Assembly: GCF_000746085.1 (NCBI RefSeq)
Contig: NZ_JQKO01000026.1
Location: 1 to 37,116, forward strand
From: Methylocapsa aurea
GTDB taxonomy: Bacteria; Pseudomonadota; Alphaproteobacteria; Rhizobiales; Beijerinckiaceae
DNA length: 37,116 nt
Direction of reading: 5' to 3'
Shown: positions 6,240 to 26,391 of the stretch, one piece after another
How the letters are laid out: every line of letters starts with the position of its first letter
Position numbering within the stretch: position 1 is the first letter of the stretch
The notes under the pieces: model-generated
Told to the model about the DNA's origin: nothing
The model's database searches: none
The model's input: the letters and a program-made list of their open reading frames with translations, nothing else
Position numbers and translations under genes: made by a program

Positions 6240-6254
6240 GTTCTATTTTTGTTC
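6240..6254 (+). promoter_or_regulatory. LexA (SOS) box, alphaproteobacterial type
   Basis: The sequence GTTCTATTTTTGTTC is a perfect GTTC-N7-GTTC direct repeat with an AT-rich centre, the known LexA operator form of Alphaproteobacteria. It lies between the AddB-like gene (start 6091, minus) and the small gene starting at 6278 (plus). On the plus strand a TTGACT hexamer at 6219-6224 ends 15 nt before the box, so the box would cover the -10 region of a rightward promoter and repress it. Which of the two genes it controls, or whether both, cannot be read from sequence. Confidence 0.75.
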
Positions 6255-6277
6255 TTATATCAAGACGGAGCGGAACG

Positions 6278-6486
6278 ATGCCCGCAACGGCCGAGCAAGA
6301 CCCCTTTGCCGAGCCGGCCGACGAAAAGATCGCCGAGATCATCGCCAAATTTGGCGGGAGTCGGAGCGGGTTTTGGCTGTCCGTCAACGCGCGCTGCGCA
6401 CCTTCAATGGCCCACTGGGAAAACTGGTCGATTACCTTGGGTTTGAGCGCCGCGACCTCTTCGTTGATGGTGAGACTGGAGAGTAA
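6278..6486 (+). pseudogene. Small SOS-box-associated gene, apparently frameshifted
   Basis: The ATG at 6278 follows GGAG by about 6 nt and starts 23 bp after a perfect LexA box. The first frame gives an acidic, coding-like N-terminus (begins MPATAEQDPF, ending near IAKFGG at about 6357) and then turns implausible. The +1-shifted frame from about 6365 to the TAA at 6484-6486 reads like ordinary protein (contains LGKLVDYLGFERRDLFVDGE). The simplest reading is one gene of about 70 codons with a frameshift near 6358-6380; a sequencing error or two unrelated reading frames are alternatives. I do not recognise the product. A 131-codon minus-strand reading frame over the same stretch (6172-6567) looks less protein-like and is not called. 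Confidence 0.35.
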
Positions 6487-6673
6487 ATTATTCAAGACTA
6501 CACCATATGGGTGGGGTTCACGACGGAGGCGAAATGAGACTGTTGACTCATGCTCCTGCACCGTCAATGTACGTAGACAGAATATATATCATAAACAATG
6601 GGATAAAAGACATAATCTTATACCGTGGGCGATCGATCTTTAGCGTTGCCTGAAACGACATGCAATCGCCAAT

Positions 6674-9600
6674 CTAACCGTCTCGTAATATGTCTTCAGT
6701 CTGCTCAGAATTCGGAAATACCGAAGTGACCCACCGATAGTCGTTGAAGCCGCGGACCGGTTGCAACCGACGCTGCTCGAGCGTCTTTACGAGTTTTTCG
6801 GTTTCACGCGCCGGGTTGTCGAACCAGTCTGTCGACCAAACGCGGATTAGATCCCAGCCGAGCCCTCGGAGTACCTCCTCGCGCAGGCGGTCGCGATCTC
6901 GTGCGCTCTTGCTCGAATGATAGCTCGCGCCATCGCATTCGACACCGGCGAGAAACATCTCGGGGTGATCTGGATGGCGAACACCGAGATCGATCCTGTA
7001 ACCGGAAACGCCGACCTGCCGGACGATATCGTAACCCTTACGGCGCAGACGATCTGCCACTTCAATCTCGAAGTCGCTGTCTGGCTCGCCCCCAAGCGTC
7101 TGCACCGCCGCGCGCCCCCGCGTCTCAGCGTATTCCAGATAGCGTTTTAGAATCTGGACGCCTTGGTGGCTCCCTTCGGGCGGCTTCACATCGGCCGATC
7201 CAAATGATGCGAAAATGCAAACGCGTATGCGCGCTCGCGAAAAGAGGACGTTGAGACGCCGATGGCCTTGCTTCCCATTTATGGGCCCGAAACGCTGCTT
7301 CATAGCTGTCGCACCTGGCTCACGGCCATAAGTAAGGGAGATGAATATAAAGTCTCGCTCGTCTCCTTGAACGTTCTCGAGATTCTTTATGAAGACTTCC
7401 TCTCCCTTTGATTTCACCTTCTCCCGATAGCGGTCGACCAGCACATCATTGGCGGAAAGGCGATGTACCTCCTCGCGAAGCAATTCAAACTGGGTCGCGT
7501 TGACCGCCACAATGCCGAGCGTCGGGATCGACTCTTCACTTTCCTCTGCGAAACGCCGCATGAATTCGACGGCTTCTTCCGCGAGCCTACCCGCTTCGAT
7601 CACATTTCTGCGAGCCTGATAGAAGCCATCAACACGCACGAGGTCCACCGAAAACGATGCGGGCCTTGCTTGTGGAAAAGTGATGAGGGCATTGTCATAG
7701 AATTCGGCGTTCGAGAATGCGATCAAGCTTTCGCAGCGACTACGGTAATGCCATTTTAGACGACGGAGTTCACGGAAACTTCTCTGGCAGGCCTCAAGGA
7801 TCGATTCATCATCGATATCCTCGAAATCATCGTCAGAGGAGGGTCTGTCGTCCGAACGCGTAAAGAAATCGGTCGGGGGCAACTGCTTGGGATCACCGAC
7901 CACAACAATTTGCTTGGCCCGCAACAATCCACCAAGAGCATCCTCAGGCTGCATCTGAGAGGCTTCATCGATCACGATGAGATCGAACGCGAGCTTTCCG
8001 GGCGTGAGAAACTTGGCAAGAGAGAGCGGCGACATCATGAAGCACGGCTTCAATGTCTGGATGGCTTGGCCGCCTCTTGACAGAAGGTCCCTCACTGGTG
8101 CGAAGCGCCGCTGCTTTGCGAATTCATTGCGGAGAAGCGCCGCATCCGTCCAAGTTGATTTCGGTCCGTAATTTGAACCATTGGGTGGCGTAGCGTGGAG
8201 GAGCTTGTCCTTCACCGTCTTTCGATCGCTCTTAATTTTTCGATGATCCCTCTCAGCAAATATTTTGCGCCGCGCTTCAAGAGTAGATCCGTTGCTACCG
8301 AGGGCTGGCGTCATTCGGCGTATGCGGTCGGCGCGCCGCTCCGAGACAAACGTTTCGAACACGTTCTGTAAGCGGATGCCTTCTAGCAAGAGCTTGTCTG
8401 CGCTGGTCAGGAATTCGGAAAGGCCGGCCTGTGAGAGGATCTGCCGTTGACGGCCTATAGCGATCAATTCGTTGAGTTCTACCTGGTGTTCGGTCAAGAG
8501 ATCGATTTGCTCGGCAAGGGACGACGCTGGAAGCGTTTCGAAATCACGCATCCCGAATTCGCCAGTGACAACAGCCAACAGCCCTTTGTATCGTGATTTG
8601 AGCGATCCTCCATCTTGGGCGACCTCGCGTAATATTTCGCGCTGGGTACTCGCATTTGCGGAGACGAGGCGTTTTTTCCAGAATTCGGGACAATTGGATC
8701 GGCGAATATCCCGGATCCATGCGATTGCCGCAAAGGCGGAGTCTATGTCGGCCTCGCTGTGCCCCAGCGCTTCAATAACGTCCCGCGTCGGCCTAGCTGC
8801 GATCCGCTTACCAAGCTCCTCCAGTCTGGCGATGCGCTCCGCCGTCTCGGCGATTTGCTTGATCGGAAAGTGAATCAGCGCGAGCTCTTGTTGCGGATCC
8901 AGCGAGAGGAATTGCCGTATGGTCGCAATTTCGGCGTCAAGTTCGACGAGTACGCGATCAATGGATTTTGAACTTAATAGGCACTTGATCTCCGGACTTA
9001 GCGTCCCCAACGTTTGTCCTAGGTCGGCATAAAGGCCGATCGCCTCAATTTGGCTAGGGCTGAGCGAGAATATTCGCGCGCTCACACGCGCGCCGGTCGG
9101 AAGCGTCGAAACTTTCGTTTCGATAAAGCCACGTAGCTTCAGACCGATTGAGATATTCTCAAAGGGACTGTCGAGGCCGCGCCAATGCACGCCCAACATC
9201 GTGGCGGCGCCGACATCGTTTACGAAGGCGGATAACTCCTGGACGTGTCGGCTTAACGACTCGAGATGATCCGCGGTATCGTTTGTTTCGTCCAGAGAGA
9301 GCTTAGCAACGAGTGCGCGCGCCGCCTTCCCTGCTGCCGTCAGGCTAGCGAGTCCCTTTCCTATTCCCCTTTTTCGAAAGAACGGAGCCGCCGCGTCAAT
9401 TTCGTCGGCTGGCAGCCAGTTTCGTGAGCCATAGCGGTGGAGCTTGTCGCGCCAGTCCTGTTCCAAGGATACGAGGGCTGCCCATCTGGCATATAGTGGC
9501 CAAAAGGCGGCGTCGTGGAGAGTCGGCAGCTCGCCAATCCAAGGCCGATGTTCTGGATTTATCTTGGAAGCGATTACAGCCGCTGCGGCGACAGCATCAA

Positions 9601-11860
9601 GGCCGTTCGCTGGGTGCGAGCGGTCCAGTCCGATCTGATCGAGAAGAGGCATGAATTCATTTAGGATTTCGACAACCGCCAGAGCCTGAGCCAATCGTCC
9701 TCCGGCAGCCGCGTAGGCGTCCCGAGCTGTCAATGTTCGAAATTCATTTGCCAGAGGATGTCTTAGGATAGATGTTGCGACGTTGAGCCTGTCGAGTGGT
9801 TCGCAACGAAGGTCTGGCAGCGATCTCAACTCAGCTTCGATGCCGAGAATGTCACGCCGCAATGCAAAACCGTGCTCAAGTTCGGCGAGGTCGAAATTGA
9901 CGAGTTCCGCAATGAGGCGATCGTCGGGCGCATCGGCGATTTGATCATTAAGCACGACAAGATGATCAATGCCCCCGAGTGTTCCGGCGCCCAGATCATC
10001 ATTCCGAGCGAAATACTTAGTGAGCTCCGACGCAGCGTCATGCAGCTTCGTCAACGTGTCGATGAGCCGGGGAATCTCAAAGGTTGGGAAGTCCCCGAGT
10101 TGAACGCACGCCCAAGGGGAATGGGCTGGATGGCCGAAGCTCGATGCAAAACTTGTCGAGAGGTGAGCATAAATTTCGATCTGGCCGCGCAGCTCGGCGA
10201 GTCGATTTGGGTCATCGAGGACGTCGGATGAAAGAACAATTGGTCGCATCGAGTCCATCACATCGCTATTGCGACTTCGGCCACGCACTGCCCTCCAGAT
10301 GAGGTTGAAAGGCGTCAATCCATCTGCGTCCTCCGCATGCAGGGCAGCAACATAGCGACTAATCTCATCGCGGCTTTCAACCCAAGTTGGGTCTTTAGCG
10401 GTCACTGTGCCGCTTGGAGTGGATTCCCGGCCGAGCTGCACGCGCGCCTGAAGGCTCTCGATCACCGACTTTGGTGAAGCCTTGTCCGAATGGAGCTCAA
10501 GACAAAAGTCGCCGAGGCCAGCCTGATCGAGACGGCGCTTGACGACGTCGAGAGCAGCCTGCTTTTCAGCAAGGAACAAGACGCGTTTGCCCGCCCCTAG
10601 CGCGTTTGCTACGATATTGGTGATCGTTTGCGATTTGCCGGTGCCAGGCGGTCCCTGAATCACCAAATTTTTTTCTTTCATCACATCGATAAGCGCGCTG
10701 TGCTGCGATGCGTCCGCGTCATGGATCAGGATCGGTGCGATCTTCTCGAATTCTGGATCGTCAATTGGATAATCCGCTGGGACGCCAAGCAGTCCCGGCC
10801 CCTCGCCAGTGCGCTCGACTCCACTCAAAATCGCGTTTACGAGACTGTGGGCGGAAGGGTGCTCGGTCCAATTTTCTGGATTGAGGTCCGCATACATTGC
10901 GAACCGGCCGAATGCAAAATGTCCAAGCACGAGCCATCGCCGGATCCCCCATCGCTTCAGTCCATCAACGGCGGCGCGCGTCTTCTCTAAATAGGACTCG
11001 ATGGACCCGAAAGGATCGTCTTCGCTGCATTCGAAGTCGGGAAGGGCGCGGTTGAAATCCTTTTCTACAACTTTCTGAAGGCTGAGATTTACCTCGACGG
11101 AACCTTCACGGATCGAGAGGTAATAGACGGATTTTCCCTTGACCTTTTTCTCCTCAAGTCGCACCGGAAGGAGCAGCAATGGGGCGAAGAATTTTTTATC
11201 AGAATTGTCGGCTTCATACCATTCCAAGAAACCGAAAGCGAGAAACAGTGTTGAAAGCCCCATCTCTTGATCAGCAAGCCGTGCATCGCTCGAGATTTTT
11301 TCGAGGATGCTTTCGAGTTCGTCCGAATACATGAGAGTCTGGAGCGCAGAATCGGGGTGAACTTCCCTTTGCCGATTCGGTCGGAGCTCGAGACTGGGGT
11401 CAACCCCAATCGATCTCGCGTGGTCAGCCCGATTAATCTCTTTTCTAGACGGCCGCGGCGGTAGCCCTAGCTGACCTCGAACCTTTTCACGTAGTTCACG
11501 TTCGAGAGTTGCGACGGCGATCTCGTCGTCCCTGCCCTTGCTCTCGAGGGCCTCGCGCTTAACGAGGTATTCAACATCTGACACCCTTGCATGCTCCAGG
11601 GCCGACTTAAACTCTTCGCTTCTCTCATCCGCCGGGATGTCGTCGGGATCAGGGAGGCCCTGGATCTCGAGAGCGGCTTCTTCCGCGACGAGTTTGCGGT
11701 AAACATCCTCAAATACATGATCGATGATTTGCAGATGCTTCTTCGACCTCGTGGCGAAGCTGTAATTCAGCATTCGGTTTCTTTTCGACAAGTCGAGAAG
11801 TTTCAGGCGAAGCTGCTCATAAAGTTTCGCAAGGCGGGATTGTTCGGTCTCGTCCTGCAT
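6674..11860 (-). CDS. DUF4011-SF1 helicase-Vsr-like nuclease (Hhe-type defence protein)
   Basis: Giant 1728-residue protein. The N-terminus has the DUF4011 signature (LLDLSKRNRMLNYS, about residues 21-34). A UPF1-like SF1 helicase (COG1112 type) follows, with Walker A GPPGTGKS near 403-410, an insertion of roughly 850 residues, DEAS at 1298-1301, GDPKQLPP near 1322, WHYRS, VQGDERD and the arginine-finger motif LNVLFSRAR near 1537. The C-terminal 130 residues form a Vsr/REase_MTES_1575-like nuclease (Asp1624 in YRIDLG; VECDG near 1640-1644; then WSTDWF). This domain order is known as the single-gene anti-phage system Hhe (DUF4011-helicase-Vsr). ATG 11860 was chosen because AAGGAG lies 11 nt upstream; TTG 11887 is less likely. 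Base composition is visibly less GC-rich than either flank, suggesting separate acquisition. All motor and nuclease residues I can check are present. Confidence 0.85.
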   Translation of the reverse strand: MQDETEQSRLAKLYEQLRLKLLDLSKRNRMLNYSFATRSKKHLQIIDHVFEDVYRKLVAEEAALEIQGLPDPDDIPADERSEEFKSALEHARVSDVEYLVKREALESKGRDDEIAVATLERELREKVRGQLGLPPRPSRKEINRADHARSIGVDPSLELRPNRQREVHPDSALQTLMYSDELESILEKISSDARLADQEMGLSTLFLAFGFLEWYEADNSDKKFFAPLLLLPVRLEEKKVKGKSVYYLSIREGSVEVNLSLQKVVEKDFNRALPDFECSEDDPFGSIESYLEKTRAAVDGLKRWGIRRWLVLGHFAFGRFAMYADLNPENWTEHPSAHSLVNAILSGVERTGEGPGLLGVPADYPIDDPEFEKIAPILIHDADASQHSALIDVMKEKNLVIQGPPGTGKSQTITNIVANALGAGKRVLFLAEKQAALDVVKRRLDQAGLGDFCLELHSDKASPKSVIESLQARVQLGRESTPSGTVTAKDPTWVESRDEISRYVAALHAEDADGLTPFNLIWRAVRGRSRNSDVMDSMRPIVLSSDVLDDPNRLAELRGQIEIYAHLSTSFASSFGHPAHSPWACVQLGDFPTFEIPRLIDTLTKLHDAASELTKYFARNDDLGAGTLGGIDHLVVLNDQIADAPDDRLIAELVNFDLAELEHGFALRRDILGIEAELRSLPDLRCEPLDRLNVATSILRHPLANEFRTLTARDAYAAAGGRLAQALAVVEILNEFMPLLDQIGLDRSHPANGLDAVAAAAVIASKINPEHRPWIGELPTLHDAAFWPLYARWAALVSLEQDWRDKLHRYGSRNWLPADEIDAAAPFFRKRGIGKGLASLTAAGKAARALVAKLSLDETNDTADHLESLSRHVQELSAFVNDVGAATMLGVHWRGLDSPFENISIGLKLRGFIETKVSTLPTGARVSARIFSLSPSQIEAIGLYADLGQTLGTLSPEIKCLLSSKSIDRVLVELDAEIATIRQFLSLDPQQELALIHFPIKQIAETAERIARLEELGKRIAARPTRDVIEALGHSEADIDSAFAAIAWIRDIRRSNCPEFWKKRLVSANASTQREILREVAQDGGSLKSRYKGLLAVVTGEFGMRDFETLPASSLAEQIDLLTEHQVELNELIAIGRQRQILSQAGLSEFLTSADKLLLEGIRLQNVFETFVSERRADRIRRMTPALGSNGSTLEARRKIFAERDHRKIKSDRKTVKDKLLHATPPNGSNYGPKSTWTDAALLRNEFAKQRRFAPVRDLLSRGGQAIQTLKPCFMMSPLSLAKFLTPGKLAFDLIVIDEASQMQPEDALGGLLRAKQIVVVGDPKQLPPTDFFTRSDDRPSSDDDFEDIDDESILEACQRSFRELRRLKWHYRSRCESLIAFSNAEFYDNALITFPQARPASFSVDLVRVDGFYQARRNVIEAGRLAEEAVEFMRRFAEESEESIPTLGIVAVNATQFELLREEVHRLSANDVLVDRYREKVKSKGEEVFIKNLENVQGDERDFIFISLTYGREPGATAMKQRFGPINGKQGHRRLNVLFSRARIRVCIFASFGSADVKPPEGSHQGVQILKRYLEYAETRGRAAVQTLGGEPDSDFEIEVADRLRRKGYDIVRQVGVSGYRIDLGVRHPDHPEMFLAGVECDGASYHSSKSARDRDRLREEVLRGLGWDLIRVWSTDWFDNPARETEKLVKTLEQRRLQPVRGFNDYRWVTSVFPNSEQTEDILRDG

Positions 11861-12267: not shown

Positions 12268-13416
12268 CTAAAGCGCTAGGCTCAATTGAGACTGCTCGTT
12301 CGCCCGATCGTCGTCCAGCGACGACAATGACGCGCCCAGAAGCCGGATGCCTTTTGCGAGCGGAAAAAGGCTTTCGAGGAGTTCGAGGCTTTGCCGTTCA
12401 AGGTCGGCGCGCGTCTCAAATGGCGCTGCGCTCGTCCGGCTTCGCGTGATCTGCTGGAAATCGGCGTATTTGACCTTCAGCGTCACCGTCCGCCCACGCG
12501 CTCCAGCGCTCTCGCAATGACGCCAGACCTTTTCCACGATCGGCTGCAGCGCATCGCGCGCTGCCTCAACGGTGAAGAGGTCAGCGAAAAAGGTGTTTTC
12601 CGCGCCAACCGACTTGCGAATCCGATCGGCGCGAACCGGCCGTTCGTCGATCCCGCGCGCGATCCAGTAGTAGTATGGCCCTGCTTTCCCGAATTGATCC
12701 TGCAGATAGGCAAGCGGATGCGTCTTCAGGTCGAGTCCCGTCGCAATTCCGAGCCTGTTCATCTTCGCGGCGGTCGCAGGTCCGACGCCATGGAATTTTC
12801 GGACCGGCAGTGTCTCGACAAAGGCCGGCCCCATCTTTGGCGTGATCACGAAGATCCCGTCGGGCTTGCGATGATCCGATGCGAGCTTCGCCAGAAACTT
12901 GTTGTAGGATACACCGGCGGAGGCGGTGAGCTTCGTCTCGGCGCGGATCTTCGCTCGGATCTGTTCCGCTATCTCGGTCGCGGAGGATATCCCCTTGAGA
13001 TTTTCAGTCACGTCCAAATAGGCTTCGTCGAGTGACAGCGGCTCGATGATCGGCGTATATTCGGCGAAGATCGCCCGCATCTGTTGGGAGACTTCCCTGT
13101 AGACGTCGAACCTCGGCTTCACGAAAATCAGGTCTGGGCATTTCCGCTTGGCCGTGATCGACGGCATCGCCGAGCGGACGCCGAATTCCCGCGCCTCGTA
13201 GCTCGCGGCCGCGACAACTCCGCGTTCGCGTGAACCACCGACCGCGACCGGCTTTCCCCGTAGCCAGGAATTGTCGCGCTGCTCAACTGAAGCGAAAAAG
13301 GCGTCCATGTCGACATGGATGATCTTGCGTTGTCGCGCGGGTTCGATCGACTGGCTTCGATCCTGATGATCGAACGGGGTCGTTGACTTGTTTCGATCGG
13401 AATCCTGCACGAGCAT
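12268..13416 (-). CDS. dinB: DNA polymerase IV (Y-family translesion polymerase)
   Basis: Predicted 382-residue Y-family polymerase that extends past lesions. Metal-binding residues are present: Asp36 and Asp38 in HVDMDAFFASVE, and Asp130/Glu131 in SLDEAYLD. The finger motif YEAREFGV is at 73-80. The extreme C-terminus ends QLSLAL, which fits the sliding-clamp-binding motif (QL[SD]LF-like), so the enzyme should dock on DnaN. ATG 13416 was chosen: it lies 5 nt after the stop of the SRAP gene, whereas the longer frame from 13536 would overlap that gene by over 100 bp and adds an Arg-rich, non-conserved extension. It is the third gene of a helicase-SRAP-dinB operon. Confidence 0.93.
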   Translation of the reverse strand: MLVQDSDRNKSTTPFDHQDRSQSIEPARQRKIIHVDMDAFFASVEQRDNSWLRGKPVAVGGSRERGVVAAASYEAREFGVRSAMPSITAKRKCPDLIFVKPRFDVYREVSQQMRAIFAEYTPIIEPLSLDEAYLDVTENLKGISSATEIAEQIRAKIRAETKLTASAGVSYNKFLAKLASDHRKPDGIFVITPKMGPAFVETLPVRKFHGVGPATAAKMNRLGIATGLDLKTHPLAYLQDQFGKAGPYYYWIARGIDERPVRADRIRKSVGAENTFFADLFTVEAARDALQPIVEKVWRHCESAGARGRTVTLKVKYADFQQITRSRTSAAPFETRADLERQSLELLESLFPLAKGIRLLGASLSSLDDDRANEQSQLSLAL

Positions 13417-13421: not shown

Positions 13422-14087
13422 TCAGGCCGCAAAGCCTCCCTCGTCTTTCTTTTCGCCCCTTGCGACGATCATGAGAGCGGCGTCGGGAAGCGGCCGCTGC
13501 AGCTTCAGAGCCTCCGCCGCGGGCGCGGTCATCCAAAAATCGATTTCTTCCTGCGTCGTCAGAATGACGGGCATGGCTTTCGGATGGATCTGAGCCACGA
13601 CCGCGTTGGGCTTAGTCGTCAGAAACGCGAAGATGTCGTTGTTCGTCTCGCCTTCTTTCACTTTCCTGACCGACGTCCAATTGGTCCAGATTCCGGCGAA
13701 GAAAGCCAGAGGACGGGCCTCGTCGAATGCAAACCAGACGGATGGATGCGTGCCGTCAGGCAGCGCCTCGTTCTCAGAAAAACTCGTGAAAGGCACAACC
13801 GCGCGATTCTCGACGCCGAGCCATCGGCGCCAATGCGGCGATTTCACATTGCGGACATTTGTGACGCCTGGATCAGATTTCTTCCCCTTTAGCGCGAAGA
13901 CAGGCGACGGCATGCCCCACCGCGCCATCGTGAGTTCGCGTCCGTCAAGCTGATTGCGCACAATCGGGGCCGCATAGTCGGGAAAGATCCCAGGAAAGGG
14001 TGGCAGGTTGCCCGTGCGGTCGCTCATGGCGCGCGCGAACTCGCGGATCGCCTGCTGCCCTTTGGTCAACGAATATAAATTGCACAT
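13422..14087 (-). CDS. SOS response-associated peptidase, SRAP (YedK/HMCES) family
   Basis: Predicted 221-residue SRAP protein. Members of this family crosslink covalently through Cys2 to abasic sites in single-stranded DNA and protect them from cleavage. ATG 14087 places Cys at position 2 (MCNLYS), which the mechanism requires after Met removal; AGGA lies about 9 nt upstream. An upstream start at 14108 would bury the cysteine and overlap the helicase gene. Other family positions are visible: Asn77 in TNVRN, Glu105 in SFSE and His168 in IHPKAMPVIL. The gene lies 11 nt after the helicase stop and 5 nt before dinB, so the three probably share a transcript and act on stalled or lesion-bearing single strands. 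Confidence 0.92.
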   Translation of the reverse strand: MCNLYSLTKGQQAIREFARAMSDRTGNLPPFPGIFPDYAAPIVRNQLDGRELTMARWGMPSPVFALKGKKSDPGVTNVRNVKSPHWRRWLGVENRAVVPFTSFSENEALPDGTHPSVWFAFDEARPLAFFAGIWTNWTSVRKVKEGETNNDIFAFLTTKPNAVVAQIHPKAMPVILTTQEEIDFWMTAPAAEALKLQRPLPDAALMIVARGEKKDEGGFAA

Positions 14088-16293: not shown

Positions 16294-16308
16294 GAACATT
16301 TAGGGAAC
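16294..16308 (+). promoter_or_regulatory. LexA (SOS) box in the imuA/helicase divergent promoter
   Basis: GAACATTTAGGGAAC is a perfect GAAC-N7-GAAC, the reverse complement of the alphaproteobacterial LexA operator. It is 52 bp upstream of the imuA start. TTGACT at 16273-16278 ends 15 nt before it, so the operator would overlap the -10 of the imuA promoter. A further GAAC at 16320-16323 follows at 11-nt spacing. In Alphaproteobacteria the imuAB-dnaE2 cassette is a known LexA target, which supports the call. Confidence 0.85.
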
Positions 16309-16360: not shown

Positions 16361-17122
16361 ATGAACGAAGCCGCGGCCAGCCCCATCGTCGCCGAGCTTC
16401 GCGAGCGCATTCAGCGCCTTGAAGGCAAACGCGCGCACCGTCGCGCGGTGCTGCCCTTCGGGATCAAGGAGATAGACCAGCATTTGCCGGGAGGAGGGCT
16501 GGCGCTGGGCGCGCTGCATGAGGCGGCGGGCGGCGGCAATGGCGCGATCGACGGCGCGGCGGCCGCGCTTTTCGCAGCGGGGATCGCGGCGCGGACGCGC
16601 GGCAAGATCCTGTGGTGCGTCGCCCGCCAGGATCTTTTCGCCCCCGCGCTCGCGCAGGCGGGATTGCCTCCAGACCGCGTGATCTATGTCGAGGCCGGTG
16701 ATGAGAAGTCGGTTCTCTCCTGCTTCGAGGAAGGTCTGCGCCATGGCGGGCTTGGCGGGGTCGTCGCCGAAGTGGCCCGTCTCTCCATGACGGCCTCGCG
16801 CCGGCTGCAACTCGCGGCCGAAAGCTCCGGCGCGATCGGCGTCGCCATCCGTCGCTGGCGGAGGCAGGCTGAAGCCGCCGAATTCGGGCAGCCGACCGCC
16901 TCCGTCACCCGCTGGCGCGTGACGGCGCTTCCCTCTGCCCCTTTGCCGGTCCCAGGCGTTGGACGCGCAAGGTGGCGGCTCGAATTGATCCGGTGCCGCG
17001 CCGGCGAAAGCGCCGATTTCGAAGTGGAGGCCTGCGATGCCAAGGGTCGTCTCCATCTTCCTTCCGACCTGGCCCACAGACCGGATCAGAAGAAAGCTGG
17101 GCGCCACCGCGCCGCCGGCTGA
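16361..17122 (+). CDS. imuA: ImuA, RecA-like mutasome protein
   Basis: Predicted 253-residue ImuA (SulA/RecA-fold). It contains the family pattern from IDQHLPGGGLALGALHEAA (about residues 38-56), a degenerate nucleotide-binding region (AAGGGNGAIDGAAA) and a RecA-like core (GKILWCVARQDLFAPALAQAG). ImuA works with ImuB and DnaE2 in damage-induced mutagenesis. ATG 16361 was chosen, with GGAGGG upstream at 16343-16348; the TTG at 16328 is less likely. The 3' end overlaps imuB by 86 bp, implying coupled translation. The last 15 or so residues are basic and poorly conserved-looking. Confidence 0.9.
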   Translation: MNEAAASPIVAELRERIQRLEGKRAHRRAVLPFGIKEIDQHLPGGGLALGALHEAAGGGNGAIDGAAAALFAAGIAARTRGKILWCVARQDLFAPALAQAGLPPDRVIYVEAGDEKSVLSCFEEGLRHGGLGGVVAEVARLSMTASRRLQLAAESSGAIGVAIRRWRRQAEAAEFGQPTASVTRWRVTALPSAPLPVPGVGRARWRLELIRCRAGESADFEVEACDAKGRLHLPSDLAHRPDQKKAGRHRAAG

Positions 17123-18560
17123 GGCACCGCTTGTGCTCGTCGGCAGGGATGGGAGACGGCGCGTGGTGCTCGCTGTCGATGCGGCCGCTCAAGCCGCAGG
17201 CCTAGATGTCGGCATGCCCGTGACCAAGGCGCAGGCGCTGACGCCGGGTCTCATCGTCATGGACGCCGATCCGGAGGCCGACGCCGAAGCGCTCGAGCGC
17301 CTCGCCCTTTGGGCGCTGCAGCGCTATGCGCCGATCGCCGCGGCCGACCCGCCGGATGGGGTCGTCCTCGACATCTCCGGCGCGGCGCATCTTCATGGCG
17401 GAGAAGACGCCATGGTGAAGGGGATGGTCGAGCGGATCGTCGCCGCAGGCATCGCCGCCCGCGCTGCGCTGGCCGACAGTTGGGGCGCCGCTCATGCGCT
17501 CGCGCGTTTCGCCCCGCGTCCATCCATCATCATTCCTACAGGCGAGAGCGCGAAGGCGATCCTCGGTCTGCCGATCCGCGCCTTGCGCCTGCCGAAGGAT
17601 ATGGTCGACGGACTTCGCGTCCTCGGTTTTGAGAGCATCGGCGAATTGGCGGCGACGCCCCGCGCGCCGCTCGCCCTGCGCTTTGGTCCCGAACTCGGCC
17701 GCCGCCTGGATCAGGCCTTGGGGCGGCTTTGCGAGCCGATCGATCCTGTGCGGCCGCCGGACCTTGTTGAGATTCGCCGAGCCTTTGCCGAACCGATCGG
17801 AGCGGCCGAAACAATAGCGCGCTACACCGGCAAGCTTGTCGTCCTGCTTTGCGACGCGCTCGAGGCGAAAGGCCTCGGGGCCCGACGCCTGGACCTTGTC
17901 TTTCATCGCGTCGACAATCGCATCGGGGCTATCCGCATTGGAACGGCGCTGCCCGTTCGCGACGCGAAGCGTCTCACGAGGATGCTCTGCGACAAGATCG
18001 AGACCATCGATCCCGGCTTTGGCATCGAGATCATGCGGCTGGCGGCTTCCGTCGCCGAGCCCCTGGAGGCCAAACAGACGATCTCGTCATTGACGGACGA
18101 GCCGGAGGCCGACGTCTCGGCTCTGATCGATGCGCTCGCCAACCGCGTCGGCGAAGACCGCATCTATCGTTTCGCCCCGGTCGCCAGCGATGTGCCGGAA
18201 CGGTCCGTTGCGCGGATCGCGCCGTTGGCGCCCGGCACGGGGGAGGGATGGCCGGACCATTGGCCGCGGCCTTCCCGCCTATTGGCCGTTCCGGAGCCGA
18301 TAGACGCCTTGGCGCTGCTTCCCGATCATCCGCCGGCGAGCTTCACCTGGCGCGGGGTTCGCCGCCGCGTGAAACGCGCCGATGGTCCCGAGCGCGTCTT
18401 TGGCGAATGGTGGAAACGCGACGCCGAACTGGCGGCGGTGCGCGATTATTTTCAGGTCGAGGACGAGGCGGGCGAACGGTTCTGGATCTATCGCGCCGGC
18501 GACGGCGAGGACGCCGCAACCGGTTCGCAACGCTGGTTTCTGCACGGACTATTCGGATGA
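17037..18560 (+). CDS. imuB: ImuB, non-catalytic Y-family polymerase-like mutasome hub
   Basis: Predicted 507-residue Y-family-like protein. The N-terminus ([16 protein letters not shown]) aligns with the DMDAFFASVE site of true Y polymerases but lacks the acidic residues. The second site reads [11 protein letters not shown] instead of SLDEAYLD. Loss of catalytic acids is the family hallmark: ImuB is a clamp-binding scaffold that recruits DnaE2 and ImuA. The C-terminal segment ends RWFLHGLFG, as is usual for the family. The stop overlaps the dnaE2 start as ATGA (18557-18560), so translation is coupled. Confidence 0.93.
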
Positions 18561-21500
18561 GCGCGCCGCGTTACGTCGAACTGCAATGCACATCGCATTT
18601 CAGTTTTCTGCGCGGGGCGAGCTCCTGTGACGAACTGTTCGCCCAAGCCTCATTGCTCGGCATGGAGGCGCTCGCGATCGTCGACCGCAACAGCCTGGCC
18701 GGAATCGTTCGCGCCCATGAGGCGGCGAAGGCGACCGGAGTCCGCCTGATCGTCGGCTGCCGCCTCGACCTCACCGACGGCGCGTCGGTCCTCGTCTATC
18801 CGACCGATCGGCCTGCCTATGCCCGGCTCTGCCGGCTGCTTTCGCTCGGCAAGAGGCGCGGCGGCAAGGCGCAATGCCGGCTCGACTGGTCCGATCTCGT
18901 CGCCTATGCCGAGGGCCTGATCGCGATCCTCGTCCCCGACGAGGCCGATGACGCCTGCGCGCGGCGCCTGCGCCGGCTCGCGCAAACGTTCGGCGACCGC
19001 GCATATCTGGCGCTGACGCTCCGCCGCCGGCCGAACGATGCGCTGCGGCTCCATCATCTTTCGGAGATGGCGGCGCGGGCAGGGGTCGCGCCCGTCGTCA
19101 CAAATGACGCGCTCTTCCATGTCCCGGCCCGGCGCATGCTGCAGGATGTGGTCACCTGCATCCGGCACAATTGCGCCATCGATGACGCCGGGGTCCGGCG
19201 CGAGCGTCATGCCGATCGCAATCTCAAAGCGCCGGAGGAAATGGCCCGGCTCTTCAGCCGCTATCCTGAAGCGCTGGCGCGCACGCTCGAAATTGCCGAT
19301 CGCTGCCGCTTCTCGCTTGAGGAACTCGCCTATCAATATCCGCACGAGGCCACGATCCCGGGCCTGACGCCACAGCAGGCGCTGGAGAAGCAGGTTTGGG
19401 ACGGCGCGGCCGAGCGTTATCCCGAGGGCGTCCCCGACAAGGCAGTCGCGCTCCTCAAGCATGAGCTGCGTCTGATCGAGACGCTGCATTATGCGCCGTA
19501 TTTCCTGACAGTGAATGCGATCGTCCGCTTCGCCCGCAGCCAGGACATTCTCTGCCAGGGCCGCGGCTCCGCCGCCAACAGCGCCGTCTGCTACGTGCTT
19601 GGCGTCACCTCGATCGACCCTGAGCGCAACGACCTTCTATTTGAGCGCTTCGTCTCGGAGGAGCGGCGCGAGCCGCCCGACATCGACGTGGATTTCGAGC
19701 ACGAGCGGCGCGAGATCGTCATGCAATGGGTGTTTAATCACTATGGCCGCGATCACGCCGCGCTCTGCTCCACCGTCATCCGCTATCGCGCCAAAGGCGC
19801 GCTGCGCGACGTCGGCAAGGCCCTCGGCCTGCCCGAAGACCTCATCAAAATGCTCTCCTCCCAGATCTGGGGCGGGTCGAGGGAAGGCGTCGATCCCAAG
19901 CACGTGGAGGAGCTGAACCTCAACCTCGGCGACCGGCGTCTGCGCCTTGCTCTGGACCTCGCCCGCGAGCTGATCGGCGCCCCGCGCCATCTCTCGCAAC
20001 ATCCGGGCGGCTTCGTCCTCACCCATGACCGCCTCGACGAGCTGGTTCCGATCGAGCCGGCGGCGATGAAGGACCGGCAGGTGATCGAATGGGACAAGGA
20101 CGACATTGACGCGCTGAAATTCATGAAGGTCGATTGCCTGGCGCTCGGCATGCTGTCCTGCATGAAGCGCGGCCTCGACCTCCTGGCCGACCACAAAGGC
20201 GTCGCGCTCGACCTCGCCTCGATCCCGGCCGAGGATCCCAGCACCTATGCGATGATCCGCAAGGCCGACACGATCGGGGTCTTTCAGATCGAGAGCCGCG
20301 CGCAAATGGCCATGCTGCCGCGGATCAAGCCGCGCACCTTCTATGATCTTGTCATCGAGGTGGCGATCGTCCGGCCCGGCCCCATCCAGGGCGACATGGT
20401 CCATCCCTATCTGCGCCGCCGCGAGGGCAAGGAAAACGTCGTCTATCCCAAGCCCGAGCTGGAGAAAGTGCTCGGCAAGACGCTCGGCGTTCCCTTGTTC
20501 CAGGAGCAGGCGATGAGGGTTGCGATCGAATGCGCCGGTTTCACCGCCGCCGAGGCCGATCAGCTTCGCCGGTCGATGGCGACATTCAAGCATACAGGCG
20601 GGGTCTCGAAGTTCCGCGACAAACTAATTTCCGGCATGGTCGCCAAGGGCTACGAACGCGAGTTTGCGGAAAAGACCTTCAACCAGCTGGAGGGCTTCGG
20701 CAGTTACGGCTTCCCCGAAAGCCACGCCGCCTCATTCGCGCTCATCGCCTACGCTTCGTCATGGCTCAAATGCCATCACCCGGATGTTTTCTGCGCGGCG
20801 CTCTTGAACGCGCAGCCCATGGGTTTTTACGCGCCCGCGCAGATCGTCAGGGACGTCCGCGACCACGGCGTCGAGGTTCGCCCCATCTGCGTCAGCGCCT
20901 CCCGTTGGGACTGCACGCTGGAGCCGGCCGGCCCCGAGGACCGCTTCGCCGTGCGGCTCGGCCTGCGCATGGTTCGGAGTCTGTCCAATACCAGCGCCGC
21001 CGCCATCATCGGCGCGCGCGCCGACCGCCCCTACGCATCCGTCGATGATCTTTGGCGTCGCGCCGGCGTTCCAGCCGCCTCCCTCGTGCAAATCGCAAAG
21101 GCCGACGCCTTCCAACCGTCGTTGAAACTCGCCCGGCGCGAGGCCCTTTGGGCGATCAAGGCGCTACGCGATGAACCGCTTCCGCTCTTCGCCGCCGCCT
21201 CGGCCCGCGAGGCCCGGACAGTGGCTGAAATCCACGAGCCTGCGGTTGCGCTCCGCCCGATGACGGACGGCGGCGAGGTCGTCGAGGACTACGGCCATGT
21301 CGGGCTGACGCTCCGCGCCCACCCTGTCTCATTCCTCCGCGAAGACCTGCGTGGCAAAGGCGTCGCAACCTGCGCCGAAGCGATGCAGGCGCGCGACGGG
21401 CGCTGGGTTCGCGCCGCCGGACTTGTCCTCGTTCGGCAAATGCCAGGCTCCGCCAAGGGCGTCATGTTCATCACCATCGAGGACGAGACCGGCGTCGCCA

Positions 21501-21814
21501 ATCTCGTCATCTGGCCAAAGCCCTTCGAAAAGCAGCGCCGCATCATCCTCTCCGCCGGCATGCTCGCCGTCGACGGCCGGATTCAGCGGGAAGGGGATGT
21601 CGTGCACCTCGTCGCCCGGCAACTTGCCGACCTCTCGGGGCTCCTCGCGAGCGTTGGCAATCGCGACTTGGCCGTTCCGCCGCCGGATGGGCGCGGAGAC
21701 GAGCTCCATCACGCAAGTCCCGGCCTCAATCCGCCGCCCGGCGGACCTAAAACCCACGGCGCCCCACCTCTCTGCCCCGATGCGATCAAGGTGAAGGCGC
21801 GGGATTTCCGGTAG
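18557..21814 (+). CDS. dnaE2: Error-prone DNA polymerase III alpha subunit DnaE2
   Basis: Predicted 1085-residue C-family polymerase, the usual DnaE2 length. The N-terminal PHP domain starts [17 protein letters not shown] and has lost metal-binding histidines, typical of DnaE2. Catalytic aspartates sit in PPDIDVDF (about 375 and 377) and [11 protein letters not shown] (about 525). A C-terminal OB-fold reads [22 protein letters not shown] 18557 overlaps the imuB stop by ATGA. The frame is open further upstream to 17849, but that stretch is imuB in another frame. It synthesises across lesions in the SOS mutasome. Between its stop and the convergent gene at 21839 is a GC-rich inverted repeat without a U-tract, not a convincing terminator. 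Confidence 0.95.
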
Positions 21815-21838: not shown

Positions 21839-22306
21839 TTAAGCCGCCGCCTGCGTCTCGTTCGCGCTGACGGCGGACGCTGATGCTGCTTTACGACCGC
21901 GCGCCTTTGGCGCGGCCCACTTGCCGTCGATGTTTTTGGCGAGGCCGCGCTTTTTTAACGCTTGAAGCGAAAAGGACACGGTCCGATTATTGATGTCCCG
22001 GCCTGTGGCCTTGACCTGCTCGGCGATCTCGGCGGCCGAAAGGGGACCATGCTCGGCGAGGACCGCGGAGATCGCGGCGCCGATGGTCTGGCGCGGCTCG
22101 CCCGCTTCCAGCTTACCCTTGAGCTTCGGTTGACGAACCGGCTTTGGCCCTGGCTTCTGTTTCGCCTTTGGCTCCGACGCCGCTTTTGTCGGTCGCGCCG
22201 AAGTCTTTTCCAGAGCCTGGAGCTCCCGCTCGGCGATGCGTAGGTCGCCGATCTTCGCCTCCAGATCAGCAATCTTCGCGTGGATGCGTTCGAGTGCAGT
22301 GTCCAT
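21839..22306 (-). CDS. Coiled-coil plus winged-helix putative DNA-binding protein
   Basis: Predicted 155-residue protein, not assigned to a named family. Residues 1-34 form a heptad-rich coiled coil (ERIHAKIADLEAKIGDL). Residues 35-72 are a Lys/Pro/Ala-rich linker (AT-hook- or H-NS-like in composition, contains KPGPKP). Residues 75-132 resemble a winged helix (LSAAEIAEQVKATGRDINNRTVSFSL, ending GKWAAP). The tail is Lys/Ala rich. AGGAG lies 10 nt before the ATG. A paralogue with the same layout lies at 30648-31124 but is interrupted. Both share an upstream element about 130 bp before the start. A nucleoid-associated or regulatory role is inferred from architecture only. Confidence 0.7.
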   Translation of the reverse strand: MDTALERIHAKIADLEAKIGDLRIAERELQALEKTSARPTKAASEPKAKQKPGPKPVRQPKLKGKLEAGEPRQTIGAAISAVLAEHGPLSAAEIAEQVKATGRDINNRTVSFSLQALKKRGLAKNIDGKWAAPKARGRKAASASAVSANETQAAA

Positions 22307-23053
22307 GATGAATTTGCTCCTGTTGATCGGGGGGCGGGGATTGTTGCTGTCGAATCAAACCGAGTCGGCCGATCCTGCAAACTATGAAATGGCGAGCGCG
22401 TACTCTGAATTCAATTATTCAGATCGCTCCCTTTGTAGGAAACCTTTTCCAAGGGGCGCTGTGAGTCGCATTGATTCGTCTTCGAATATATCGTGACCGA
22501 AAAGTCAACAGCTGATTTCCAACAACGCCGTTTGAGATTTGAAGTTCCAGCTTTCCAATCGCGCAGTTCCTTGACGCTACGCCAACTGAGAATCCGTCAG
22601 GAGACCATCGGATAGGTAAGTATCCAAAGCGCTGGCTATCGGCGTCCGTAATGAGACTTTCTGCCGGCTTAAGGATCCGCTTAACTAATCCTGGCTGGTC
22701 AGGCTGAGGCAACTCCCCGAGGATTTTACGCACGCGATATCCAATCTGCGCATGCCAAACGCCTCAACCGGAGATATGGCGCCGGCTTCCCAACCTCCGC
22801 CTCCCAACGAGCATTCGCCGTCGCCGCATCGCGCGGCAGGCTTATTTGGTTGCCGCCAAATCCACGCAAACGATCGTAAGAATTTCCCAGCCTATCGTGA
22901 GACCGCGGTCCATCCCGAGCGCCGAACAACTCCTCGGCCATGACCAAACGAAAGCGCATCGGCCGCCGCTGATGGCTTGGGCGTGATTGCAAGTGGATCG
23001 GAAGAGTCGTTTGATATCATTTATTCTTCCACTTTGAGCAAAGGCCGTGAGCC
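22307..23053. other. 747-bp gap between the winged-helix gene and recD2
   Basis: The gap holds the conserved element at 22435-22462. Two minus-strand reading frames of 104 and 88 codons (22419-22733 and 22726-22992) are open, but neither looks like a known protein nor has a good ribosome binding site; I treat them as unproven. They could be decayed fragments of one former gene, because they abut in different frames. No LexA box was seen here. Confidence 0.4.
22435..22462 (-). promoter_or_regulatory. Conserved upstream element shared with the paralogous locus (copy 1)
   Basis: A 28-bp block beginning GTAGGAAAC and ending GGCGCTGT on the plus strand. About 22 of 28 positions match the block at 31260-31287. 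It lies 129 bp upstream of the winged-helix gene start at 22306, nearly the same distance as copy 2 from its gene (136 bp). A shared promoter or operator, possibly autoregulatory, is a reasonable inference; simple remnant homology after duplication is the alternative. Confidence 0.45.
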
Positions 23054-25246
23054 TTGAAACCCGCCGTCTCCGCCGCCTCTTCCCGTGAAACGCTCGTCGG
23101 CTCCGTCGAGCGAGTGACTTTTCACAATGAGGAGAATGGCTTCGCGGTCCTGAGGGTGAAGGCGCGCGGGCGGCGCGACCTCGTCGCGGTGGTCGGCCAT
23201 GCCGCTTCGATTTCCGCCGGCGAATTCATCCACGCCGTCGGCGTCTGGCTCACCGACCGAACGCATGGCCTTCAGTTCAAGGCCGATCTGCTCAAGACGA
23301 CGCCGCCGACGACGGCCGAAGGCATCGAGAAATATCTCGGCTCCGGCATGGTGCGCGGCATCGGTCCCAAGCTCGCCAATCGGATCGTCGCCGCCTTCGG
23401 CGAAGCGACCTTCGAAATCATCGAGGCCAATCCAGAGAAGCTAAGGGAAGTGTCTGGGATCGGCGAATTCCGCGCTGGGAAGATCGCCGCGGGCTGGGCC
23501 GAACAGAAAGCGGTGCGGGACATCATGGTCTTCCTGCATTCGCATGGCGTCGGCACGTCGCGGGCGGTGCGCATCTTCAAGACCTATGGCCATGACGCCA
23601 TTCAGGTGATGACCGAGGATCCCTATCGGCTCGCCCGCGACATTAAAGGCATCGGCTTTCGGACCGCCGACGCGATCGCCATGAAGATGGGCATGACCCG
23701 CGAGGCGCCGCAGCGGGTTCGAGCCGGGATCTCCTTCGCCCTGCAGGAGGCGACCGACGAAGGCCACTGCGGGCTTCCGGTTGAGACACTCGTCGAGCTC
23801 GCGACCAAGCTCCTCGAAGTCGACAAGACCATCGTCAAATCGGCGCTGGAGCATGAGCTCGCTCATGACGAGGTCGTCGCCGACGCGATCGGCGGAGAGC
23901 CCTGCATTTTCCTGCGCGGCCTCTATCTCGCCGAACGCGGCGTCGCGGACCGGCTTCTCGTCTTGGCGAAGGGCGCCCCGCCTTGGCCCGCGATCGACGC
24001 CGAAAAGGCGATCCCATGGGTCGAGAAGAAGACCGGCAAGACGCTCGCCGCGTCGCAACGCGCAGCCATTGGGATGGCGCTGCAGGCGAAGGTGGCGGTG
24101 GTCACCGGAGGGCCCGGCGTCGGCAAGACGACGCTGCTCGACGCCATCCTGCGCATCCTCGCCGCCAAAGGCGTGAAAATCCTCCTCGGCGCGCCGACCG
24201 GGCGCGCCGCCAAACGGATGACGGAGCAGACCGGCCTCGAGGCGAAAACCATCCATCGCCTGCTCGAGATCGATCCCATGCACGGCGGGTTCAAGCGCAA
24301 TGCCGAGAATCCGCTCGACTGCGACCTGCTCGTGATCGACGAGACGAGCATGGTGGATATTTCATTGATGTTCGCCGTCATGAAGGCGGTCCCATCGAGG
24401 GCGGCCCTGCTGCTCGTCGGCGACGTCGACCAGCTCCCCTCGGTCGGGCCCGGCCAGGTCCTCTCCGATGTTATCAATTCCGGCGCGATCCCGGTCGCCC
24501 GCTTGACCGAAGTGTTCCGCCAGGCCGCCGAGAGCCGCATCATTGTCAACGCCCACCGGATCAATCGCGGCGAGATGCCGGAATGGCCGAAGCGCGGCGA
24601 AGAGTCGGACTTCTGGTTCGTCGAGGCCAAGGGTCCGGAGGACGGAGCGGCCAAGGTCGTCGAACTCGTCCGCGAACGCATTCCGCGGCGGTATCACCTC
24701 GACCCGATCCAAGACATCCAGGTTCTGTGTCCCATGCAACGCGGCGCACTCGGCGCGCGTTCGCTCAACGCCGATCTTCAAAAGGCGCTCAACCCCAACC
24801 CCTCCGTCCGCATTGAAAAATTCGGCTCGGTCTTCGCGCCCGGCGACAAGATCATGCAGACCGAGAACGATTACGACCGCGACGTCTTCAACGGCGACCT
24901 TGGGACGGTGCTGCGCATCGATGAGGCTGAAGGCCTTCTGGTCGCCGGCTTCGACGGGCGCGAGGTCGAATATCCGCTCAGTGAGCTCGACGCGCTGCTT
25001 CCCGCCTATGCGATGACGATCCACAAATCGCAAGGTTCCGAATATCCAGCCGTCGTCATCACCCTTGCAACGCAGCATTACACGATGCTGGCGCGAAACC
25101 TCGTCTATACCGCCGTTACGCGCGGCAAGCGCCTCGTGGTCATTGTCGGCCAGCGCCGGGCGATGGCGATCGCGGTGAAGAGCGGGGCAGGACGGCGACG
25201 CTGGACGAAACTGGAAGAGTGGATGAGGCCAGCGCGAAAGACCTGA
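23054..25246 (+). CDS. recD2: RecD2-type 5'-3' DNA helicase
   Basis: Predicted 730-residue SF1B helicase. The N-terminus has an OB-like start (LVGSVERVTFHNEENGFAVL) and helix-hairpin-helix repeats (GSGMVRGIGPKLANRIV, VSGIGEFRAGKI) typical of RecD2, which lacks RecBC partners. Walker A GGPGVGKTT is near residue 352, DETSMVD near 428, GDVDQLPSVGPG near 456 and the VFRQ motif near 482. The UvrD-like C-terminal motifs AMTIHKSQGSEYP and YTAVTRGKRLV follow. The start is TTG at 23054: no in-frame ATG precedes the conserved region, and AAAGG lies about 9 nt upstream. It stands alone between non-coding gaps. The 253 bp after it (25247-25499) show no gene. Confidence 0.92.
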   Translation: MKPAVSAASSRETLVGSVERVTFHNEENGFAVLRVKARGRRDLVAVVGHAASISAGEFIHAVGVWLTDRTHGLQFKADLLKTTPPTTAEGIEKYLGSGMVRGIGPKLANRIVAAFGEATFEIIEANPEKLREVSGIGEFRAGKIAAGWAEQKAVRDIMVFLHSHGVGTSRAVRIFKTYGHDAIQVMTEDPYRLARDIKGIGFRTADAIAMKMGMTREAPQRVRAGISFALQEATDEGHCGLPVETLVELATKLLEVDKTIVKSALEHELAHDEVVADAIGGEPCIFLRGLYLAERGVADRLLVLAKGAPPWPAIDAEKAIPWVEKKTGKTLAASQRAAIGMALQAKVAVVTGGPGVGKTTLLDAILRILAAKGVKILLGAPTGRAAKRMTEQTGLEAKTIHRLLEIDPMHGGFKRNAENPLDCDLLVIDETSMVDISLMFAVMKAVPSRAALLLVGDVDQLPSVGPGQVLSDVINSGAIPVARLTEVFRQAAESRIIVNAHRINRGEMPEWPKRGEESDFWFVEAKGPEDGAAKVVELVRERIPRRYHLDPIQDIQVLCPMQRGALGARSLNADLQKALNPNPSVRIEKFGSVFAPGDKIMQTENDYDRDVFNGDLGTVLRIDEAEGLLVAGFDGREVEYPLSELDALLPAYAMTIHKSQGSEYPAVVITLATQHYTMLARNLVYTAVTRGKRLVVIVGQRRAMAIAVKSGAGRRRWTKLEEWMRPARKT

Positions 25247-25499
25247 GGGACTATTTCGCGGATAATGCTCCAACGCAGCGACAGCTGTGATCGACGGCGG
25301 CGGTCACCCGGATCGCGGCTCCCGGAAAATGGCGCGGGTCTGGTCGTTGGCTGCAAGCGGCGACGCCTCAGTTGGATTATGAGACCTGCATAGCAATCGA
25401 GAGCCGCCAACCGCCAACGCGACTCTGCTCTTTGCTCACTCGCGCTTTGAGCATATCGGCCGGCGCGGACTTAAGGCGTGATCAAGCGCGCTTAGACGA

Positions 25500-25931
25500 T
25501 TACCCGAATTTGTAAGGCCCGAGGAACAGATCGCCGAGCGCTTTGCGCATGCGCAGCGTGAGCCAGCGCTGGCGGCGATGCTCGTCCCGATCATGCCGCA
25601 GGTGGCAGCGCTGGCAAAGAGCCTTCAGATTGCGCGGACGGTTGTTTGCTGGATCATGGTCGAGATGCGCCGTCGCCAAATAAACGCGTGTGGAGCGGAT
25701 CTCAGCCAACGAGATTATCTCGGGCCCATGCCGCAAAAGTCGGCCTTGGCCGTCGCGCCACGCCGAGCGCCCTGCGTCCCACCAACGCCCGTCACTGAGG
25801 CAGATGACGATCCGACCATGCGGCCGCGCGCAATGTTCGCAGCAGCCTTTTGCCCGCTCGAAGCGGATCACGGCCGAAAGCTCCCGCCAATCGATCGGAT
25901 AGAACCAGCGAAATTGCGGCCGAATAGGCAT
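25500..25931 (-). CDS. HNH endonuclease-fold protein
   Basis: Predicted 143-residue protein. It has a zinc-binding HNH layout: a CxxC knuckle (CCEHC) near residues 30-34, a histidine-rich core ATAHLDHDPANNRPRNLKAL and a second knuckle CQRCHLRHD. The N-terminus (MPIRPQFRWFYPIDW) is Trp-rich, and this type is common in alphaproteobacteria, often of phage or mobile origin. ATG 25931 begins the conserved part; ATG 25967 adds 12 non-conserved-looking residues. No strong ribosome binding site is visible. Nuclease activity is likely from the motif; the substrate is unknown. It is divergent from the SOS-box-linked genes at 26392. Confidence 0.75.
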   Translation of the reverse strand: MPIRPQFRWFYPIDWRELSAVIRFERAKGCCEHCARPHGRIVICLSDGRWWDAGRSAWRDGQGRLLRHGPEIISLAEIRSTRVYLATAHLDHDPANNRPRNLKALCQRCHLRHDRDEHRRQRWLTLRMRKALGDLFLGPYKFG

Positions 25932-26391
25932 GTTGAATCGATAGACGAGAACCGATGCTCTCGGCAAGACCCGGAAGCGCTTGACGGGTCCGGCAGCGCC
26001 ATGACCTTAAATGCGCCAAAACCCGGCCGCTCTGCGGCGAAGGCGTTGGAGACACGACCATTGACGTCCAGGGGCGAAGTGTCGAAGGCATTTGCATCGG
26101 CGCGCCTCAGACCGGACTCCACAGCGGGAGCGGCTCGGTGCGAACGGGGGAATGCCCGGGACATCGCGGCGAGCGGCCTGTTTGCAGGGGCGCACGGCGG
26201 GGCCTATTCACAGTCGGGCCTATCGGAGCTGACGATTGCAACCGAGCGCACTGCTCTTGCGCCCGCCACCAACCAGTGGTAGAACGAACCGCGAACATAA
26301 GGGCCGGTGCGCAGCGTCAAGGCGATCGAATTGATCGTCCAGGCGGCCGTTTGAGATCGCGAAAAATGCGGGGGCAAAGAGGGGATATTCC
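25932..26391. other. 460-bp divergent intergenic region
   Basis: Between the HNH gene (minus) and the small gene at 26392 (plus). Several long reading frames cross it on both strands, but they are high-GC artefacts with arginine-rich, non-conserved translations. The only recognisable element is the LexA box at 26282-26296. Confidence 0.5.
26282..26296 (+). promoter_or_regulatory. LexA (SOS) box upstream of the PLD nuclease operon
   Basis: GAACGAACCGCGAAC is a perfect GAAC-N7-GAAC. It lies 95 bp upstream of the small gene at 26392 and is followed by ATAA, as in the imuA box. TTGCGC at 26257-26262 with a 17-nt spacer to TAGAAC (26280-26285) could form a promoter whose -10 overlaps the operator. 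On the other strand a TTGACG at 26320-26315 points to the HNH gene. The centre is less AT-rich than in the other two boxes, so I am less sure of this one. Confidence 0.6.

Follow-up and report, generated by a model that had tools for sequence, protein, structure and literature searches.

The three exact GTTC-N7-GTTC sequences of the DNA analysed here (the window, 37,116 nucleotides of Methylocapsa aurea) are very probably operators of the host LexA repressor. Two of them, boxes 2 and 3, lie in a plasmid-type accessory SOS module, and the three units preceded by boxes would be derepressed when LexA is inactivated. The motif, its positions and its conservation, the boxes of recA and lexA and the synteny with other replicons are observed in the sequences; LexA binding, repression, induction, the extents of the operons, the export of a nuclease and the plasmid nature of the window are inferred.

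The LexA motif of the host genome

According to the published description, GTTC-N7-GTTC is the LexA motif of the Alphaproteobacteria (PMC3323433). The genome of M. aurea contains a single LexA match, which scores over the NCBIfam cut-off, and an exact box is located 109 bp upstream of its gene; another exact box precedes recA by approximately 90 bp. The initial annotation would have been refuted if the genome's own LexA motif differed from GTTC-N7-GTTC, and both the recA and the lexA promoters carry this motif. Judged by sequence, the host LexA uses it. Exact boxes also precede a copy of uvrD, a second imuA and genes that resemble ssb, ogt, comM and parC, the last four names being given from N-termini recognised by eye rather than by a family search.

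The genome of 3.97 Mb contains 105 exact matches to the motif, compared with 197 matches to a reversed control pattern. We inspected 101 of the 105 sites (98 elsewhere and the three in the window; the remaining four were left out), and our own gene caller placed 40 of them outside genes and 61 in coding sequence, with box 2 wrongly counted as coding owing to a spurious ORF opposite imuA. Spacers rich in A and T (at least six of the seven bases) were found in nine of the 40 intergenic sites vs. three of the 61 sites called coding. A scan with a matrix derived from the host's own SOS promoters had been proposed by the initial annotation, and we built such a matrix from seven sites of the genome (recA, lexA and other presumed SOS promoters). 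Among the 101 sites, box 1 ranks 7 (score 25.2), box 2 ranks 8 and box 3 ranks 14; the spacer of box 3 is G+C-rich, its matrix score is lower, and an equally high score is reached by one of the 60 genome sites that were called coding. A middling matrix score is weak evidence in either direction because the matrix has only seven sites, its training sites are bound to rank high and the lexA training site scores only 1.6 when it is left out. For the same reasons, the matrix alone was considered a weak proof.

Number and position of the boxes

The initial annotation had reported three perfect boxes and had estimated approximately one chance match for the whole window and 0.1 for its non-coding part. 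All three boxes are exact, and there is no fourth in the whole window (Table 1). Shuffles of the whole window gave a mean of 1.30 matches, and three or more occurred in 14 of 100 shuffles; a total of three is thus near chance, and the raw count was rejected as proof of operators. When the shuffles were restricted to the intergenic DNA (6119 bases, or 6.1 kb, with the gene limits drawn by hand), the mean was 0.179, near the earlier estimate, and none of 2000 shuffles reached three. Therefore, the significance of the boxes derives from their intergenic position and not from their number.

The further claim that the boxes are intergenic and just upstream of genes stands for these hand-set gene limits, with a reservation for box 3. 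The first base of box 3 coincides with the final base of an ORF at 25578-26282, which has no family matches, and the reading frame of the downstream phospholipase D-type (PLD) nuclease is open back to 26138, i.e., beyond the box. Box 3 is therefore intergenic only if neither this ORF nor the 5' portion of the open PLD frame is coding, and it is upstream of the PLD gene only if that gene starts at 26657 or, according to the annotation of plasmid pRX1, at approximately 26606. With these starts, box 3 is 95 bases from an 87-codon ORF and approximately 310-360 bases from the PLD gene. Box 2 is 52 bases from the start of imuA and 125 from that of uvrD. A consensus scan around boxes 1 and 2 found no sigma-70-like promoter.

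Table 1. Predicted LexA operators and genes of the window.
Feature	Position	Strand	Sequence	Evidence or remark
AddA-like UvrD helicase with PD-(D/E)XK nuclease domain	291..3449	-		Pfam UvrD-helicase, PDDEXK_1; addA_alphas 153 bits
AddB-like, PD-(D/E)XK nuclease domain	3446..6091	-		Pfam PDDEXK_1; homologues on 27 plasmid records
Box 1	6240..6254	+	GTTCTATTTTTGTTC	Predicted LexA operator; candidate targets AddB-like gene (left) or short ORF (right)
Short open frame directly downstream of box 1	6278..6643	+		No relatives found
dinB, Y-family polymerase IV	12268..13416	-		Pfam IMS, IMS_C
SRAP (HMCES/YedK-type) gene	13422..14069	-		Pfam SRAP
uvrD/pcrA-like helicase, second copy in genome	14099..16168	-		Pfam; 91.7% identical to copy on contig C2
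Box 2	16294..16308	-	GTTCCCTAAATGTTC	Predicted LexA operator between divergent uvrD and imuA
imuA	16361..17122	+		NCBIfam ImuA 67 bits, under cut-off of 150
imuB	17037..18560	+		Pfam IMS, DUF6504
dnaE2/imuC, error-prone polymerase	18557..21814	+		Pfam DNA_pol3_alpha, finger, PHP, HHH_6
recD2 helicase, without own exact box	23054..25246	+		NCBIfam helicase_RecD2 876 bits, cut-off 500
Box 3	26282..26296	-	GTTCGCGGTTCGTTC	Predicted LexA operator upstream of 87-codon ORF and PLD nuclease
87-codon ORF	26392..26655	+		First frame after box 3; no Pfam match; DNA aligns with pRX1, where the PLSDB table lists no gene
PLD nuclease, Nuc-type, single domain	26657..27226	+		Pfam PLDc_2; phmmer to 1byr (pKM101 Nuc structure) E 1.1e-08

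The predicted two-way operator between uvrD and imuA

The imuA, imuB and dnaE2 genes are adjacent, in this order and on one strand, as in a mutasome, with ImuA scoring under its NCBIfam cut-off. Box 2 faces two divergent operons, uvrD-SRAP-dinB on its left and imuA-imuB-dnaE2 on its right, a point on which the initial annotation was silent. Its claim that the mutasome locus is under a LexA box is borne out by conservation. ImuA matches were found in 51 of 80 genomes of the family, at 58 places in total. Of these, 30 ImuA loci were compared, each from a different genome and our own among them; in 28 an exact box occurs within 600 bp upstream of imuA, whereas the other 92 kb of these loci contain three. 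Furthermore, the half-sites of box 2 are identical in all eight homologous promoters aligned, including those of pRX1 and of the uvrD copy on contig C2 of the same genome, and these promoters are 71-92% identical to our own where identity was measured. The uvrD/imuA intergenic DNA was found in five of 15 genomes of the genus, including our own; it occurs twice in one of them, and in another (G199) the match extends over 90 bases only.

That box 2 acts on both uvrD-SRAP-dinB and imuA-imuB-dnaE2 is best supported by the uvrD copy on C2, which has no imuA match beside it and nevertheless retains the box in the same orientation and at a nearly equal distance (131 bp). A UvrD homologue is located within 1.5 kb of imuA in only two of the 30 ImuA loci, our own and that of genome G037, which indicates that only some lineages have the two-way arrangement. 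We consider box 2 to be a very strongly supported case of a conserved two-way operator, with LexA binding predicted.

The same genome has a second imuA-imuB-dnaE2 cassette (contig C6, 110000-119000), where an exact box is common to the cassette and a divergent ogt-like gene. On contig C14, a box at site 91109, which ranks 5 among the 101 sites, is located 105 bp before a small-nucleotidyltransferase-like gene, and a transposase-like gene lies 20 bp away on the opposite side; a possible reading is an SOS-linked toxin-antitoxin pair, on the contig that carries the genome's repB.

Box 3 and the nuclease unit

The PLD protein has one PLDc domain, and its sequence HLKAFQID fits the HxKx4D pattern, as expected of a Nuc-type nuclease. 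The Nuc protein of plasmid pKM101 has an N-terminal export signal; the N-terminus of the present protein is hydrophobic, with an apparent signal peptide (by eye only), and the nuclease is probably exported from the cytoplasm.

Box 3 is present in three syntenic copies (the window, a contig of another genus member, G185:C1, and pRX1), with the sequences GAAC-GAACCGC-GAAC, GAAC-AAATAAC-GAAC and GAAC-AAACAAC-GAAC. All eight half-site bases are constant, and four of the seven spacer bases vary. Such conserved ends around a varied middle were found in two of 191 alignment windows, namely box 3 itself and its neighbour shifted by one base. We consider box 3 a well-supported candidate operator of the ORF-PLD unit, with LexA binding predicted. 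The initial annotation, which had placed an exported-nuclease operon under this box, gains support from the conserved half-sites, with export read from the N-terminus.

Within the family, an exact box occurs within 600 bp upstream in five of 30 PLD loci (our own included), compared with two in the remaining 86 kb. Among 12 plasmid PLD genes of Methylocystis, Methylosinus and Bosea (taken from 15 hits, H22-H36, leaving out H25, H27 and H29), four have an exact box, all four on Methylocystis plasmids; one plasmid of this set, pSS37A-Re-4, was taken to be the same as a locus of the 30-locus sample. Because most relatives have no such box (25 of 30 and eight of 12, respectively), the box before PLD should be considered a trait of particular plasmid lineages rather than of the PLD family. 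In a PLD tree of 42 rows, nine of them boxed (locus L202, with the same length and box as L155, was taken as the same plasmid and left out), the box label requires five changes, compared with a mean of 8.3 for shuffled labels, and three of 500 shuffles were as low, a comparison in which near-copies favour a low value. The label clusters in a Methylocapsa-type clade and in one Methylocystis plasmid clade.

Replicon context

The region 12268-28910 is syntenic with plasmid pRX1 of Methylocapsa polymorpha RX1 at 91-92% identity, with a short unaligned stretch in imuA, and the region 6603-30536 is syntenic at 91-92% with G185:C1, a contig of 187 kb that carries a repB scoring over its cut-off. No replication gene was found in the window, and the genome's own repB is located on another contig, C14. 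The window itself is presumably plasmid DNA, and the best explanation for boxes 2 and 3 is that they belong to an accessory SOS module of plasmid type, carried on large plasmids of Methylocapsa-related bacteria.

The synteny with G185:C1 ends at approximately 6.6 kb, and the genes to the left of dinB are different ones in pRX1. Therefore, the AddAB-like operon and box 1 represent a separate graft, and the earlier description of one island does not hold, since neither syntenic replicon has the AddAB-like part next to the module. At 6674-11887 lies a gene for a DUF4011-helicase-MTES_1575 protein of 1737 residues, whose relatives include the anti-phage proteins Hhe and ProA. Its scores of 1093 of 2000 and 1022 of 1500 bits are under both NCBIfam cut-offs, and it matches PADLOC PDC-S37 with 1078 bits. 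This gene is present in the syntenic G185 contig and absent left of dinB in pRX1.

Box 1 and alternative explanations

Pfam identifies the domains expected of AddAB, a helicase and a nuclease domain in the AddA-like protein and a nuclease domain in the AddB-like protein. However, the AddA-like protein is far under the addA_alphas cut-off of NCBIfam (860.75 bits), compared with 1203 bits for a protein of the usual type on contig C5 of the same genome; therefore, we name the window pair only AddAB-like. In nine of 11 annotated plasmid neighbourhoods (flanks of 3.5-15 kb), genes of defence or toxin-antitoxin type occur near homologues of this pair (window 291-6118), including a CBASS cyclase, multiubiquitin/ThiF, N6-methylase/WYL, SIR2 with an ATPase, and AbiE; one of the nine has a WYL-domain gene only. 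The pair may be linked to defence rather than being a repair enzyme. Two genus members (G185:C2 and G144:C81) retain only fragments of the AddB-like gene, which points to gain and decay of the pair.

The initial annotation had assigned to box 1 the control of either the AddAB-like operon or a small gene. If box 1 is the operator of the AddAB-like operon, an SOS-induced end-processing enzyme would be encoded there, a reading that we hold to be a little short of an even chance. The gap of 148 bp to the AddB-like start is similar to those of the two uvrD copies and of lexA, box 1 is seventh in the matrix ranking, and on the Methylocystis MJC1 plasmid a box, a PLD gene, an AddB-like gene and an AddA-like gene follow in series on one strand, with approximately 430 bp between PLD and AddB. 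However, when 600 bp upstream of AddB-like genes were compared in 18 cases (our own, six other full-length copies and 11 of the 27 plasmid records), with some regions ending at the match start and not at the annotated start, an exact box was present only in our own case and in Bradyrhizobium septentrionale. The latter box is 548 bp from the AddB-like gene and near the start of a divergent topoisomerase gene, which explains it better. The 17 other regions thus gave one box with another explanation, and conservation of box 1 before AddB-like genes was rejected; three AddB-like fragments have no exact box upstream either. Somewhat less probable again is that box 1 controls the short rightward ORF or is the relic of a lost SOS gene. 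The ATG at 6278 is only 23 bp downstream of the box, which is short, yet not far from the presumed parC gap of the same genome (36 bp). Against this reading, the first 30 codons of the ORF match only our own genome among the 119 family genomes searched, and the intergenic DNA around box 1 matched the plasmid records over only one stretch of 35 bases (E 0.04). Both targets are thus candidates, and box 1, a strong matrix match without a conserved counterpart before AddB-like relatives, is probably a LexA operator that arrived together with either the AddAB-like graft or the short ORF.

A more sceptical explanation is that box 2 is the only real operator and that boxes 1 and 3 fit the short motif by chance. 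The raw count of the window, which is close to the shuffle mean, agrees with this explanation, as do the G+C-rich spacer of box 3 and the absence of conservation for box 1. Nevertheless, we consider it improbable, given that the intergenic shuffles never reached three matches, that the half-sites of box 3 remained constant while its spacer drifted, that boxes precede some related PLD genes elsewhere, and that the matrix score of box 1 falls among known SOS sites. We therefore retain the explanation in which all three boxes are predicted host LexA operators.

Proposed working of the module

SRAP proteins cap abasic sites, as is known from work on HMCES and YedK. In a resting cell, LexA would occupy the promoter region shared by uvrD and imuA as well as that of the ORF-PLD unit. 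After DNA damage, RecA filaments on single-stranded DNA would induce the self-cleavage of LexA, and the three units would be derepressed. The imuA-imuB-dnaE2 products would then perform error-prone lesion bypass, with DinB as a second bypass polymerase, while from the divergent uvrD-SRAP-dinB operon UvrD would remove strands or proteins and SRAP would cap abasic sites. The Nuc-type PLD nuclease would be sent out of the cytoplasm and cut DNA there.

A further idea, which we offer tentatively and consider rather unlikely as it stands, is that an exported Nuc-type nuclease has come under the control of the host LexA more than once on plasmids of methanotrophic Alphaproteobacteria. Damage would then send a nuclease to the periplasm or beyond at the same time as mutagenic bypass, and the nuclease would be aimed at foreign DNA, incoming DNA or the DNA of neighbours and not at the cell's own chromosome.

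Comparison with known systems

Most of this is known biology, and the nuclease under a LexA box and the shared two-way operator are the less expected parts. The imuA-imuB-dnaE2 cassette has been described as persistently LexA-regulated where it is present, and additional SOS genes on secondary replicons as a trend (PMC3323433). The cases described there, from Vibrio and other multi-chromosome groups, likewise combine duplicated core SOS genes with lineage-specific additions on small chromosomes or plasmids (PMC3323433); we found neither the present module nor its nuclease among these cases. LexA control of plasmid-borne imuABC has been described for pRalta, plasmid cassettes are enriched among rhizobia that carry symbiotic plasmids, and in one case a plasmid-borne SOS mutagenesis cassette sped the adaptation of the recipient bacterium (PMC4151985). 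The pRalta imuA2B2C2 genes also form a plasmid mutasome that follows a LexA box in a lineage with a chromosomal cassette (PMC4151985), but in the present case the box is of the alphaproteobacterial type and is shared with a divergent uvrD-SRAP-dinB operon, and a LexA-boxed nuclease is located downstream.

SRAP genes have been reported together with DinB, near ImuA-ImuB-DnaE2 and in operons with a RecD-related helicase (PMC3765255). The present neighbourhood resembles these in having SRAP with dinB and near imuA-imuB-dnaE2, and differs in that uvrD heads SRAP-dinB and the module is of plasmid type; the words UvrD and plasmid each have 0 occurrences in the main text of that paper (PMC3765255). 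Nuc of pKM101 (1byr) and NucT of Helicobacter are single-domain PLD nucleases as well, the former plasmid-borne and the latter with an N-terminal export signal (PMC5714352), whereas the present PLD gene has a predicted LexA operator upstream. In the open-licence literature that we searched, we found no report of a Nuc-type plasmid nuclease controlled by SOS or LexA and none of a uvrD/imuA two-way operator.

The module suggests that a larger package may be placed under one alarm, in which strand removal and abasic-site protection would be coupled to error-prone synthesis through the two-way operator. A nuclease that is probably exported also belongs to this package; LexA-type boxes precede it in two plasmid lineages, and the operator footprints allow specific tests of LexA binding and induction.
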